From Geodermatophilus obscurus DSM 43160 (lineage in GTDB: Bacteria > Actinomycetota > Actinomycetes > Mycobacteriales > Geodermatophilaceae), in contig NC_013757.1 of NCBI RefSeq assembly GCF_000025345.1, forward strand, positions 3,534,001-3,598,000: a DNA stretch of 64,000 bases, given 5' to 3'. Below, piece by piece: positions 3,844-9,424 of the stretch. Below the pieces are notes generated by a model. It worked only from the letters and a program-made list of their open reading frames with translations. It was not told the origin of the DNA and made no database searches. Every line of letters starts with the position of its first letter. The first letter of the stretch is position 1. Made by a program: the position numbers and the translations under genes.

Positions 3844-6735
3844 TCAGCCGAGGACGAAGTTGACCAGCCGGCCGGGGACGGCGACGACGCGGCGCACCGT
3901 CTTCCCGTCCAGGTGCGCGGCGACCTTGTCGTCGGCCCGGGCCGCGGCCTCCAGCGCGGCGGCGTCGGCGTCGGCCGGCACCGTCACCTGGGCCCGCACC
4001 TTGCCGTTGACCTGGACCGCGACCTGCACGGTGTCCTCGACCAGCCAGCGCTCGTCGGCCACCGGGAACGGGTGCCAGGCCAGCGACTCGCCGTGGCCGA
4101 GCCTCGCCCACAGCTCCTCGGCGATGTGCGGGGCCAGCGGCGCGACCAGCAGCACCAGCGGCTCGGCCACCGACCGCGGCACCGCGGAGTCCGCCCCGTA
4201 GGCCTGGGTCAGGTGGTTGGTCAGCTCGGTGATCCGGGCGATCGAGATGTTGAACCGCAGCGTCGACATCCCGTCCCGGACCCCGGCGATCGCCCGGTGC
4301 AGCGCCCGCAGCGTCTCCTCGGCCGGCTGGATGTCGTCCGCCGCCCGGACCGCGCCGGTCTCCTCGTCGACGACGACCCGCCAGATCCGCTGGAGCAGCC
4401 GCTGCGAACCGACGACGGCCTTGGTCTCCCACGGCCGGGACTGCTCGAGCGGGCCGGTCGACATCTCATAGACCCGGAGCGTGTCCGCGCCGTACGCGCC
4501 GATCATCTCGTCGGGCGTCACCATGTTCTTCAGGCTCTTGCCCATCTTCCCGTACTCACGGTTGACCGGCCGGCCCTCGTGGAGGAACTGCCCGTCGCGC
4601 TCCTCCACCTCGGCGGCGGGCACGTAGAAGCCGCGCTCGTCGGTGTAGGCGTAGGCGGAGATGTAGCCCTGGTTGACCAGCCGCCGGAACGGCTCCTCGC
4701 TGCTGACGTAGCCCAGGTCGTGCAGCACCTTGTGCCAGAAGCGGGCGTACAGCAGGTGCAGCACGGCGTGCTCCATGCCGCCTACATACAGGTCGACGCC
4801 ACCGACGTCGCCGGGCTCCCGCGGACCCAGCCAGTAGCGCTCCAGCTCCGGGTCGACCATCTGCGTGTCGTCGGAGGGGTCCAGGTAGCGCAGGTAGTAC
4901 CAGCAGGAGCCGGCCCAGTTGGGCATCGTGTTGGTCTCGCGCCGGTACTTCCGCAGGCCCTCGCCCAGGTCCAGCTCGACCGTCGTCCAGTCGGTGACCC
5001 GGGACAGCGGCGGCTCCGGCGCGGAGTCGGCGTCGTCGTCGTCGAAGGTCTTGGGCGAGTAGTCGTCGACCTCGGGCAGCAGCACCGGCAGCATCGACTC
5101 CGGGACGGCGACCGGCAGGTCGTCCTCGTCGTAGACCACCGGGAACGGCTCGCCCCAGTAGCGCTGCCGGCTGAACAGCCAGTCGCGCAGCTTGTAGGTG
5201 GTCGTCGCCTCGCCGTGGCCGTGCTGCACCAGCCAGTCGGTGATCGTCGCGATCGCGGTCGCCTTGTCCAGGCCGTTCAGCGAGATCTCGTCGTTGGCCG
5301 AGTTGATCATCGCGCCGGCGCCGGTGTAGGCACCGCCGTCGAAGTCCTCCGGCGGCTGCACCGTGCGGACCACCGGCAGGCCGAAGACCTGCGCGAACTC
5401 GAAGTCGCGGTTGTCCTCGCCCGGAACGGCCATGATGGCGCCGGTGCCGTAGCCGGTCAGCACGTAGTCGGCGATGAACACCGGCAGCTCGCGACCGTTG
5501 ACCGGGTTGACCGCGGTGACGCCCAGCCAGACGCCGGTCTTCTCCCGCGCCTCGTTCTGCCGGTCCAGCTCGGAGCGGCGAGAGGCCTGCCTCTGGTAGT
5601 CCCGCACCGCCGCGGCCGGGGTCGCCGCACCGCCGGTCCACCGCGGGTCGGTGCCGTCCGGCCACGCGGTGGCGGTCAGCGTCTCGACCATCGGGTGCTC
5701 GGGCGCCAGCACCATGTAGGTGGCACCGAACAGCGTGTCGGGCCGGGTGGTGAACACCTCGATGCTCCGGTCCCCGACGGGGAACCGGATCCGCGCACCG
5801 GTCGAGCGGCCGATCCAGTTGCGCTGCATCTGCTTCACCGAGTCCGACCAGTCCAGCCGGTCCAGGTCGGCCAGCAGTCGCTCGGCGTAGGCGGTGATCC
5901 GCATCATCCACTGGGTCAGCGGACGCCGGAACACCGGGAAGTTGCCGCGCTCGGAGCGCCCGTCGGGCGTGACCTCCTCGTTGGACAGCACCGTGCCCAG
6001 GCCCGGGCACCAGTTCACCGGCGCCTGGTGCAGGTAGGCCAGCCGGTGCGCGTCGACGACCCTCCGCCGCTCCACGCCGTCCAGCTCGGCCCACGGGCGG
6101 CCGGTCTCGTTCGTGCCCGGCGCCGGCTCCCGCGTGCCGGCGTCCAGCTCGGCGACCAGCTCCTCGATCCGCCGCGCCCTCCCGGCGTCCTCGTCGAACC
6201 AGGACCCGAAGATCTGCAGGAAGATCCACTGGGTCCACTTGTAGTAGCCCGGGTCGATCGTGGCGAAGGTGCGGCGCTCGTCGTGGTCGACGCCCAGCCG
6301 GCGCAGCTGCCCCTTGATGGCCGCGATGTTGGCCTCGGTGGTGATCCGCGGGTGCTGCCCGGTCTGGACGGCGTACTGCTCGGCGGGCAGGCCGAAGGCG
6401 TCGTAGCCCATCGGGTGCAGCACGTTGGCGCCGTCCATGCGACGGAACCGGCTGGTCGCGTCGGTGCCCAGGTAGCCCAGCGGGTGGCCGACGTGCAGGC
6501 CGGCGCCCGAGGGGTACGGGAACATGTCCATCACGAAGGCCTTCGGCCGGTCGGCGACCCGCTCGAAGCCCTCGCTGAGCCGGCCGACGGGGTTCGGCGT
6601 GTGGAACGTCCCCTCGGCCGCCCAGCGGTCCTGCCACGCCAGCTCGATCCGCTGCGCCAGGGCGGGCGTGTAGCGGTGCGGCGGGACGTCGCCCACCACC
6701 TGATCGGCGCTGGGCTGGTCGGCCGTCTGGCTCAT
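3844..6735 (-). CDS. leuS: Leucyl-tRNA synthetase
   Basis: A class I aminoacyl-tRNA synthetase charging tRNA-Leu. It has 963 residues, close to the mycobacterial enzyme. The HIGH-type signature is [16 protein letters not shown] near the N-terminus. The CP1 editing domain includes [19 protein letters not shown] and the [12 protein letters not shown] segment. The KMSKS loop reads KMGKS in [16 protein letters not shown]. The C-terminal anticodon-binding and tail region ([11 protein letters not shown]) is complete. AGGAG lies 8 nt before the ATG. Upstream on the same strand is a leader peptide with three consecutive Leu codons and a terminator hairpin, so expression is probably attenuated by charged tRNA-Leu level. 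The convergent lipB is 64 bp away. Confidence 0.97.
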
Positions 6736-6780
6736 CGTGGTGCTCCTGGTCTTCGGGGGCTCGTACCGGCGGCGGACAGC

Positions 6781-6806
6781 AAAAGACCCCTCACGCAGGA
6801 GGGGTC
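6781..6806 (-). terminator. Attenuator (intrinsic terminator) in the leuS leader
   Basis: On the minus strand GACCCCTC pairs with GAGGGGTC around a 6-nt loop and is followed directly by TTTT, 46 bases before the leuS ATG. A Rho-independent terminator placed inside a 5' leader is the hallmark of attenuation. T-runs are rare in this GC-rich DNA, which makes it stand out. Confidence 0.75.
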
Positions 6807-6840
6807 GCCGTGCTGACTGGGGGTCTCAGGTCAGCACGGC
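6807..6840 (-). promoter_or_regulatory. leuS leader hairpin (11-bp stem)
   Basis: A perfect 11-bp inverted repeat (6807-6817 with 6830-6840, 12-nt loop) lies between the leader peptide and the terminator and overlaps the end of the peptide. Its loop contains AGACCCC, complementary to the GGGGTCT of the terminator 3' arm. The two structures could therefore exchange depending on where the ribosome pauses. Confidence 0.6.
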
Positions 6841-6866
6841 CGCGCAAGCAGGAGCCGCCTGGTCAC
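6831..6866 (-). CDS. Leucine leader peptide (attenuation) upstream of leuS
   Basis: A short open frame reading MTRRLLLARPC and stop, with GTG start and Leu codons CTC, CTG, CTT in a row. TAGGCT ends 6 nt before the GTG with no clear ribosome site, so the mRNA probably begins at the start codon, as for known actinobacterial leader peptides. The stop codon lies inside the 3' side of the 11-bp hairpin. Ribosome stalling at Leu codons would cover the first arm of the hairpin and change folding of the downstream terminator. No experimental support is available from sequence alone. Confidence 0.65.
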   Translation of the reverse strand: MTRRLLLARPC

Positions 6867-6871
6867 CCCGC

Positions 6872-6877
6872 CAGCCT
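6872..6877 (-). promoter_or_regulatory. -10 element of the leuS leader transcript
   Basis: TAGGCT on the minus strand with 6 nt to the leader GTG, the same hexamer and spacing as at lipB. Confidence 0.5.
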
Positions 6878-6970
6878 ACCGCGCGCGGCCACCCGGCCCG
6901 GCCTCACCCGCGAGGGGGATGCCGTCCCCGTCGAGTCGAGACGGGGGCGCCCCCGACCGAGACCACTGAC

Positions 6971-9424
6971 GTGCCATTGACACAGCGGGCCACCACGCCC
7001 TCCGGCCGCCTCCTGGCGGTGACGCTGGCGGCCCTGGCCCTGTTCACCACCGGGGTGTGGACCCGGCCGGACGGCGAGGGCTGGGCGATCGCCTACGACC
7101 TCGTTCTCTACAACCTGGTCTACGTGGGGGCCGCACTGGTCTGCGCCGCCGCGGCCCGCCGCGCGGAGGCCGACCGGATGGCCTGGTGGGCGATGACGCT
7201 CTCCCTCGCCTGGGGGCTCGTGGGCAACCTGGTCTACAGCCTGCTGGTCGCGCCGATGCCCGAGGAACCGTTCCCGTCGATCGCTGACTTCTGCTACCTG
7301 GTCTACTACGTCCCGCTCTACGTCGCCCTGATCGGGTTGATCCGCGCCCGCGTCTCGCGGTTCCACGCCAGCATGTGGCTCGACGGCATCGTCGGCGCCC
7401 TGGGCGCGGGCGCCGTCGCGGTCGCCGTCCTGCTGGGTCCGGCCCTGGAGGTCACCGAGGGCGACGTCGCCGCCGTGCTCACCAACCTCGCCTACCCGGT
7501 GGCGGACGTCGTCCTGCTGGCCCTGCTCGTCGGCGTGAGCGCGATGCTGGGTGTCCGGCGCGAGCGCACGCTGCTGCTCGTCGGCGCCGCGATCGCGGCC
7601 AACCTGGTCGGTGACATCGTCTACCTCGACCTCGCCACCGCCGGCGTCTACGTCGAGGGTGGGCCGCTGGACCTCGCCTGGCTCTCCGCGATGGCGCTGT
7701 TCGCGCTGGCCGCGCACGGCAGCGACCGGGACACCGTGCAGGCGTCGGCACAGAGCGGCGAGGGGGCAGGCACGCGGGTCGGCTGGCGCGTCCTGGCCCT
7801 GCCCCTGGCCTGCAACCTGGGGAGCCTGGTGATCCTCGCCGCCGGCTACGGGGACCGGTTCTCCTCCGCGGCCGCCTGGCTCGCCGTGGGGTGCGTCGTC
7901 GCGGCGCTGGCTCGCACCGCGATCACCTTCCGTGAGGTCCGTGCCTTCCACGAGGTCCGCGAGCAGGCCCGGACCGACGAGTTGACCGGCCTGCCCAACC
8001 GGCGGGCGCTGATGGACGAGGCCCGCCGGATGGTGGCCACCGCCACCGCCCGCCACCCCGCCGCGCTGCTGCTGCTCGACCTCGACGGCTTCAAGGAGGT
8101 CAACGACAGCCTGGGGCACCACGCCGGCGACAGCCTGCTGCGGCAGGTCGGCCCCCGGCTGCGCGACGCCCTGCGGGCCACGGACACGCTCGCCCGGCTG
8201 GGCGGCGACGAGTTCGCCGTCCTGCTGCCGGACTCGGCCCTCGACGGGGCCCAGGAGCGTGCCGAGCGGATCCGTGAGCTGCTGCTGCAGCCCTTCACCG
8301 TCGAGGGGATCCGGCTGCACGTGGGCGTGAGCATCGGCGTCGCCACGGCCCCCGTCCCCGCGGCGACGGTGCAGGAACTGCTCCGCTGCGCCGACGTCGC
8401 CATGTACGCGGCGAAGTCCAGCCGGGCGGGCGTCCGCGCCTACGTCCCCGACCCGCGCGGCGGCATCGGGGACCGCCTGCACACGATGGAGGAGCTGCGG
8501 ACGGCGCTGGAGGACGGCGACCAGCTCGCCGTCCACCTGCAGCCGCAGGTCGCCCTCGACGACGGCCGCGTCGTCGGCGCGGAGGCCCTGGTCCGCTGGC
8601 ACCACCCGACCCGCGGCCTGCTCTCTCCCGCCGCACTGCTCCCCGCCGCCGAGCAGGCCGGGTTGCTGCGGCCGCTGGCCGACGCCGTGCTGGAGCTGTC
8701 CCTCAGCGCCGCCGCCTGCTGGTGGCGGGACCGCCGCGTGCCCGTCTCGGTGAACCTGTCAGCCGCGGACGTCACCGACCTCGACCTGCCCGCCAAGGTC
8801 GCCGGGGCCCTGGCGCGGCACGGCCTGCCGGCCGCGGCGCTGACCCTCGAGCTGGTCGAGGACACCCTCATGGCCGATCCCGACCGGGGGCGTGTCGTCC
8901 TCGGTGACCTGCGGCGGCTCGGGGTCCGGACGTCCATCGACGACTACGGCACCGGTTACAGCTCGCTGGCCTACCTGCGCCACCTGCCGGCCGACGAGCT
9001 GAAGCTCGACCGGAGCCTCACCCGGGACGTCGGCCGCGACCCGCGGGCAGCGGCGATCGTCCGGCACACCGTGGCGCTCGCCCACGACCTCGGCCTCACG
9101 CTGGTGGCCGAGGGCGTCGAGGAGGACGACACCGGTGACGTGCTCGGTCCGGTGGAGGTGCGCAGCCGCACCCGACGACGCCGTCCAGCCCTCCCCCGGC
9201 CGCCGTCCCGAGGACCGCACTCGGGGTGTGCCGCCCGCGGTGAGCGGGCAGGATGGCCGCCGACACGATCAACTGGAGGTGCATCCCGTGTTCCGCAAGA
9301 AGACGCACGGCCAGATCATCGGCGAGGAGCTGCAGGAGGGCCTCGCCCACATCGGGACGGCGGTGGCGGAGGCCCGGAAGGCGGCGACGGACCAGCTGGC
9401 GCCGCGCGTGGAGGCCGCCCGTGA
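6971..9424 (+). CDS. Membrane GGDEF-EAL cyclic-di-GMP protein with truncated EAL domain
   Basis: About the first 310 residues form a multi-pass membrane sensor (roughly eight hydrophobic segments). The GGDEF domain has DELTGLPNRRAL, an inhibitory RATD site and an intact GGDEF. The EAL domain has GAEALVRW, VSVNLSA, ELVED, SIDDYGTGYSSLAYL, ELKLDRS and ends LVAEGVEE. The usual last part of EAL (LGCDxxQGYxxxRP) is absent. After about 9135 the frame continues as Arg-rich sequence that overlaps the next gene out of frame, so the natural C-terminus has been lost by deletion or frameshift. Synthase activity looks intact, while phosphodiesterase activity is doubtful. The GTG start is chosen just before the first membrane helix. 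Confidence 0.75.
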   Translation: MPLTQRATTPSGRLLAVTLAALALFTTGVWTRPDGEGWAIAYDLVLYNLVYVGAALVCAAAARRAEADRMAWWAMTLSLAWGLVGNLVYSLLVAPMPEEPFPSIADFCYLVYYVPLYVALIGLIRARVSRFHASMWLDGIVGALGAGAVAVAVLLGPALEVTEGDVAAVLTNLAYPVADVVLLALLVGVSAMLGVRRERTLLLVGAAIAANLVGDIVYLDLATAGVYVEGGPLDLAWLSAMALFALAAHGSDRDTVQASAQSGEGAGTRVGWRVLALPLACNLGSLVILAAGYGDRFSSAAAWLAVGCVVAALARTAITFREVRAFHEVREQARTDELTGLPNRRALMDEARRMVATATARHPAALLLLDLDGFKEVNDSLGHHAGDSLLRQVGPRLRDALRATDTLARLGGDEFAVLLPDSALDGAQERAERIRELLLQPFTVEGIRLHVGVSIGVATAPVPAATVQELLRCADVAMYAAKSSRAGVRAYVPDPRGGIGDRLHTMEELRTALEDGDQLAVHLQPQVALDDGRVVGAEALVRWHHPTRGLLSPAALLPAAEQAGLLRPLADAVLELSLSAAACWWRDRRVPVSVNLSAADVTDLDLPAKVAGALARHGLPAAALTLELVEDTLMADPDRGRVVLGDLRRLGVRTSIDDYGTGYSSLAYLRHLPADELKLDRSLTRDVGRDPRAAAIVRHTVALAHDLGLTLVAEGVEEDDTGDVLGPVEVRSRTRRRRPALPRPPSRGPHSGCAARGERAGWPPTRSTGGASRVPQEDARPDHRRGAAGGPRPHRDGGGGGPEGGDGPAGAARGGRP

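Follow-up and report, generated by a model that had tools for sequence, protein, structure and literature searches.

The DNA preceding leuS of the soil actinobacterium Geodermatophilus obscurus DSM 43160 very probably encodes a ribosome-operated, leucine-responsive transcription attenuator, a prediction from sequence that is based on its recognizable parts, their conservation within the family Geodermatophilaceae, a biased choice of leucine codons, compensatory changes in its stems, and a distance of 0-1 nt between its two hairpins. The leuS attenuator is thereby extended from Streptomyces to the whole of the Geodermatophilaceae and, though discontinuously, to numerous other families in the class; the codons of the leader point to what the attenuator probably senses. 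A gap in the accepted picture is also revealed: no competing helix of the usual sort was found, yet the two hairpins lie 0-1 nt apart in most leaders of three gene classes, so that the manner in which an antiterminator acts against a terminator becomes directly testable through hairpin spacing.

The genome of G. obscurus is a single contig of 5,322,497 bases, and positions are given here within the window, which is the whole 64-kb stretch of DNA that was analysed. A sequence-only reading had proposed a -10 element, a GTG frame with three leucine codons, a hairpin at the end of this frame, and a GC-rich hairpin followed by TTTT. All of these were confirmed on the minus strand (Table 1), the first hairpin being indeed of 11 bp; the elements are as that reading described them, but the end of their span had been set at 6877, one base short of the beginning of TAGGCT. 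A terminator scan of positions 6600-7100 returned two overlapping terminator-like sites, compared to a mean of 0.0 in shuffled sequences, and the 138-nt leader folds with a z-score of -2.40, equalled by two of 200 shuffles. Because the open reading frames of at least 80 aa immediately upstream on the minus strand all overlap the divergent GGDEF-EAL gene, the leader's own transcript is the most plausible target of the terminator. No Rfam family, whether T-box or another leader family, matched at gathering score within the 64-kb window. The best match at a relaxed threshold, Chlorobi-1 (17.9 bits, with a cut-off of 50), is located on the opposite strand and was judged to be due to chance.

Table 1. 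Features of the leuS locus of G. obscurus DSM 43160 (window coordinates).
Feature	Position	Strand	Basis and details
leuS, leucyl-tRNA synthetase, 963 aa	3844..6735	minus	TIGR00396, 897.9 bits; ATG at 6735
Shine-Dalgarno-like AGGAG of leuS	6743..6747	minus	sequence
U-tract TTTT	6781..6784	minus	sequence, terminator scan
Predicted intrinsic terminator hairpin GACCCCTC-CTGCGT-GAGGGGTC	6785..6806	minus	terminator scan; 55-sequence alignment
Stem 1, 3' arm GTCAGCACGGC, 0 nt from terminator	6807..6817	minus	sequence, covariation, abutment measurement
Stem-1 loop CTGAGACCCCCA, with AGACCCC at 6826-6820	6818..6829	minus	sequence
Stem 1, 5' arm GCCGTGCTGAC, including leader stop codon	6830..6840	minus	sequence, covariation
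Control codons CTC CTG CTT	6846..6854	minus	sequence and codon counts
Leader ORF GTG...TGA, MTRRLLLARPC, 11 codons, predicted leaderless	6831..6866	minus	GTG 6866-6864, TGA 6833-6831
Predicted -10 element TAGGCT	6878-6873	minus	sequence; 6-nt spacer 6872-6867, then start codon
Divergent GGDEF-EAL gene, on the other side of the leader from leuS	6971-9424	plus	

The leader element is conserved throughout the family. LeuS was matched in 109 of 112 genomes, and the element is present upstream of leuS in all 107 regions that were read, including that of G. obscurus; this set omits the three genomes without a LeuS match, two in which the 5' end of leuS is missing (G035 and G098), and the second leuS copy of G054. 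Two subsets were parsed further: 104 leaders by a stricter terminator pattern, which L153, L155 and L163 fail, and 105 leaders by stem parsing, which L130 and L167 fail. The T-run, which was expected to be conserved, is kept in most family leaders and interrupted in L153, L155 and L163, in which the layout is otherwise unchanged. The distance from TANNNT to the start codon is 6 nt in 51 and 7 nt in 53 of the 104 leaders when 4-10 nt is permitted and the start codon is picked by leucine count alone; the choice of start codon in the reading of 107 leaders, and in that of leaders outside the family, favoured a spacing of 6-7 nt. At least two adjacent leucine codons occur in 105 of the 107 leaders, a count that, like the others for this family, is not made up of independent cases since the sequences are related. 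The exceptions are L011, with Leu-Glu-Leu, and the frameshifted L143 of genome G004, in which one added base moves the frame off both the leucine run and the stop codon without visible damage to either hairpin. L143 is a candidate for natural loss of sensing, or else a sequencing error.

In an alignment of 55 sequences that was built without reference to structure, 99.4% of the cells in stem 1 and the terminator are paired, and four pairs in these stems have changed on both sides; neither value was reached by any of 500 shuffles. A weaker signal is the number of further pair types, which 64 of 500 shuffles equalled. The loop of stem 1 is variable in this alignment. The comparison of leuS upstream regions of relatives, proposed along with the sequence-only reading as its check, supported this part of it, with the leucine run retained and compensatory changes in the stems. 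Just past the U-tract, the stretch 6780-6765 (TGTCCGCC) is also well conserved in relatives. On visual inspection, the first codons of the leader seem to be its pairing partner in two genera (CCGGCGG with CCGCCGG, and CCGGTGG with CCACCGG), and a helix joining the start of the leader to the region beyond the terminator (GTCCGCC) appeared, also by eye, to covary between two genera.

Beyond the family, a covariance model made from the 55 Geodermatophilaceae sequences, at a threshold of E <= 0.01, has matches in 135 of 296 genomes of the class, G. obscurus included; 49 of the 134 other matched genomes come from two families, f21 (27) and f22 (22). Among the best 30 loci, leuS was found by tblastn in 29, and none was found in the 1643 bases of L215. 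Sixty further regions were picked, second and weak matches included: tblastn places 34 of them upstream of leuS (in the case of L221 only at E = 0.006), a further one, L270, probably precedes leuS too, 16 precede ilvB, six precede the gene for citramalate synthase, and three (L266, L275 and L277) precede neither leuS nor these. The ilvB and citramalate synthase assignments were made from translations read by eye, with three verified by NCBIfam; for citramalate synthase, L244 and L256 match TIGR00977 and the rest were identified by eye. The outside-family leuS set consists of 76 model matches minus L190 (the G. obscurus locus itself) and L225 (5' end cut), giving 74 leaders that were hand-picked from the list of a model that favours its own shape. 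Stem parsing failed for L221, L268, L240 and L241, giving 70 leaders, of which 68 have a loop of sufficient length for analysis. The ilvB/cimA set of 31 comprises 22 loci together with nine of a group of 11 ilvB loci, from which L281, whose start could not be placed, and L284, which showed no leader, were excluded.

The gaps in this distribution are partly real. The 20 unmatched genomes that were listed all belong to family f2, apparently mycobacteria-like, and 141 more genomes are unmatched. LeuS was matched in 26 of 30 genomes in which the model has no match, and a script found no leucine leader upstream of nine leuS genes that encode the same kind of LeuS in such genomes; because the DNA before these nine starts was read directly, the absence in these loci is real and not just a failure of the model to see the leader. 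In five of the nine (L292, L293, L294, L296 and L297), TANNNT directly precedes the leuS start by eye, as if leuS itself were leaderless. Part of the class has a second kind of LeuS (L301-L316), with open frames of 818-928 aa and similarity only over approximately residues 231-693. A crude look at 11 loci of this second kind found no leader with terminator; two of the 11 have a short LL-containing frame with no terminator match.

The choice of codons in the leaders differs greatly from that in the genes they precede. The 324 leucine codons of 105 family leaders are 142 CTC, 99 CTT, 82 CTG and one TTA, whereas the 2321 leucine codons of 30 family leuS bodies are 2099 CTG (90%), 188 CTC, 28 TTG, three CTA and three CTT; CTC and CTT together account for 241/324 in the leaders and 191/2321 in the leuS bodies. 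Outside the family, CTT makes up 86 of 220 leucine codons in 70 leaders versus 0 of 2405 in 32 leuS bodies, mostly of Streptomyces. Both CTC and CTT are decoded by tRNA-Leu(GAG). There are 48 tRNA matches in the G. obscurus genome, the weakest of which is not a tRNA gene according to ARAGORN, and the five tRNA-Leu genes have one copy each of the anticodons GAG, CAG, UAG, UAA and CAA. Since the leaders prefer CTC and CTT and the leuS bodies prefer CTG, the minor tRNA-Leu(GAG) is probably what is sensed. This enrichment of codons that are rare in leuS bodies is the strongest sign that the leader frame is translated and meant for stalling, and it supports the original proposal of a leucine leader peptide.

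Folding calculations, in which a ribosome was mimicked by masking the RNA through 16 nt beyond the P-site codon, link stem 1 to translation of the leader. With the A-site at the first, second and last leucine codon and at the stop codon, the mean pair probability of stem 1 is 0.95, 0.68, 0.27 and 0.00 in the family, and 0.96, 0.76, 0.26 and 0.00 outside it; in the calculation, stem 1 reports the position of the ribosome. The mean probability of the terminator is 0.99, 1.00 and 0.99 in the family, and 0.94, 0.97 and 0.92 outside it, for free RNA and for ribosomes at the second leucine codon and the stop codon, respectively. The terminator thus forms in free RNA with or without stem 1, and the thermodynamics of secondary structure alone predicts no regulation.

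An explanation for this behaviour is proposed in the placement of the two hairpins. The spacing between the terminator and the best stem found anywhere upstream, with no limit on the spacer, is 0-1 nt in 102 of 105 family leuS leaders, 59 of 70 other leuS leaders and 27 of 31 ilvB/cimA leaders, compared to 38 of 698 controls with shuffled upstream letters; the remaining leaders have spacings of -2, -1, 2 or 3 nt. A terminator hairpin closes partly inside the exit channel of RNA polymerase, and so the hairpin could be completed only once a closed GC-rich duplex touching its foot had opened. Stem 1 may therefore be an antiterminator by virtue of abutment, rather than by taking bases of the terminator. 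With an ample supply of charged tRNA-Leu(GAG), the ribosome would reach the stop codon inside the 5' arm of stem 1, stem 1 would be prevented, and the terminator would halt transcription ahead of leuS. In a shortage of this charged tRNA, the ribosome would pause on the leucine codons; its leading edge would then lie close to the foot of stem 1, and this stem could form. The closed stem-1 duplex would leave no single strand for terminator closure in the exit channel, keeping the abutting terminator from closing inside RNA polymerase and allowing readthrough into leuS. The start of transcription, its termination and its response to leucine at G. obscurus leuS are all predicted features of this scheme. 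A broader and decidedly tentative proposal, which may well fail, is that the leaders of actinobacterial leuS, ilvB and citramalate synthase genes share one design, a ribosome-gated antiterminator that acts as an abutting closed duplex with no base in common with the terminator, the 0-1 nt spacing being the switch, and that the leuS version reads the minor tRNA-Leu(GAG).

The switch that the sequence-only reading had put forward is of another kind, a pseudoknot in which the stem-1 loop, once stem 1 has formed, pairs with the 3' arm of the terminator. The loop AGACCCC of G. obscurus is complementary to GGGGTCT, as had been stated, and the duplex has an energy of -15.0 kcal/mol, whereas shuffled loops average -6.7, with 2% of 60 shuffles as good; the pairing is similarly strong in L004, L032 and L015, and a P1 loop that pairs with the 3' shoulder of P2 was proposed for the ilvB-II motif of Corynebacterium (PMC10272879, excerpt). 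Most family loops, however, lack such pairing, with a median shuffle rank of 0.37. Sixteen of 105 beat 95% of their shuffles, where approximately five would be expected if the sequences were independent, which, being related, they are not. Outside the family, eight of 68 loops exceed the same 95% mark, and the median rank is 0.65. Furthermore, the mean energy of the family's loop:arm duplexes (-7.7) is close to that obtained with loops of other species (-7.5), whereas stem 1 and the terminator are conserved. The pseudoknot, strong in G. obscurus and a few relatives, is an unlikely general switch and was set aside for want of conservation. These tests covered only the pairing of the loop with the 3' arm, and all other folds were nested.

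Such nested folds bear on a classical attenuator, in which an antiterminator helix would have bases in common with the terminator. Streptomyces leuS leaders have been termed classical attenuators, with antiterminator and terminator hairpins (PMC1262725, excerpt), and in some leaders, such as those of Streptomyces, a GGG ahead of stem 1 could by eye pair with the terminator CCC across a small bulge; this extension of stem 1 into the C-run is not conserved and was rejected. By the first measure, the terminator probability falls below 0.5 in some ribosome state in none of 105 family leaders and in six of the 70 leaders from outside; a second measure puts one of 107 family leaders below this value. 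No nested antiterminator emerged in the family when folding was constrained to each of three ribosome states or when the terminator lacked its 3' arm: with the 3' arm removed and the ribosome on the leucine codons, the terminator 5' arm has no upstream partner (mean pairing probability 0.055, above 0.5 in 0 of 107 leaders). Because the terminator forms in all states and its 5' arm is unpaired upstream, no classical overlapping antiterminator was found in the nested folds of the family, and this reading is considered highly unlikely. The least probable of the alternatives, and a very improbable one, is a terminator of fixed efficiency preceded by a leucine frame with no regulatory role on leuS. 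It would agree with the formation of the terminator in every ribosome state in free-RNA folding, and with results from S. coelicolor, where mutating codons of the ilvB and leuA leaders gave effects that did not fit classical attenuation (cited in PMC1262725, excerpt). It does not account for the leucine run, the rare codons and their position ahead of stem 1, which are conserved in the family and beyond while the loop varies.

Leaders of similar layout precede other genes of branched-chain amino acid metabolism. The ilvB gene of G. obscurus (L283, ahead of G000:C1:4272232 on the minus strand) is preceded by a leader, MRPACLLLVVA, with the same layout as at leuS; its stop codon lies at the base of a stem in direct contact with a terminator-like hairpin. 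Leaders rich in isoleucine and valine codons (e.g. MPSQVIIIVRRAG) precede citramalate synthase in L244, L245, L246, L247, L249 and L256, with hairpins 0-1 nt apart; among the matches listed in the literature, no title reports citramalate synthase leaders.

In classical attenuators of the E. coli trp type, a stalled ribosome decides the outcome at the terminator, and the antiterminator and terminator have a segment in common. In contrast, no such common segment was found in the nested folds of the Geodermatophilaceae leuS leaders. The closest known systems are the leuS leaders of Streptomyces: attenuators were predicted in S. avermitilis and S. coelicolor in 2005 by Seliverstov et al. (PMC1262725, excerpt), and leuL2 of S. 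lividans TK24 (MRAVRLLLSEPR) was described in 2021 as having a leaderless transcript with a hairpin and U stretch before leuS (PMC8079986, excerpt), and for these reasons the leuS attenuator is not a new kind. The likeness extends from a leucine leader before leuS, leaderless (by prediction in G. obscurus), to the hairpin and U stretch that follow. All 32 Streptomyces loci that were parsed have a leucine leader 6-7 nt after TANNNT and a terminator motif, and the match of Streptomyces loci to the covariance model built from Geodermatophilaceae alone indicates that the leader is homologous. The core of stem 1 differs, being mostly GCCGTGC/GCACGGC in Geodermatophilaceae and GCCGCGC/GCGCGGC outside. 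The excerpts of the two Streptomyces papers make no mention of the abutment, the choice of rare codons or the missing overlap. Hairpin clusters in termination are the subject of PMC8355165, and no paper on the Geodermatophilaceae leuS leader or on the abutment was found by titles and abstract openings among the matches listed, which mostly did not cover subscription journals.

The ilvB1NC leader of M. tuberculosis also has branched-chain codons, and a ribosome at its stop codon masks an antiterminator so that the terminator forms; replacement of its LVVI codons by alanine codons abolished induction (PMC13236596, excerpt), which provides a precedent for the attenuator proposed at leuS. It senses other amino acids and controls another gene, and it has experimental support, whereas the G. 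obscurus leuS attenuator is a prediction from sequence. Among six ilvB loci of family f2, which do not include M. tuberculosis itself, five have a leader and none was seen in L284; the hairpins are 0-1 nt apart in L280, L282 and L290, and overlap by one base in L288 and L289. The ilvB-II motif of Corynebacterium resembles the G. obscurus leader in having a frame over its first hairpin (P1), followed by a terminator (P2) and U tract, and differs in its predicted antiterminator between the P1 loop and the P2 3' shoulder (PMC10272879, excerpt), the G. obscurus counterpart of which is not conserved in Geodermatophilaceae.
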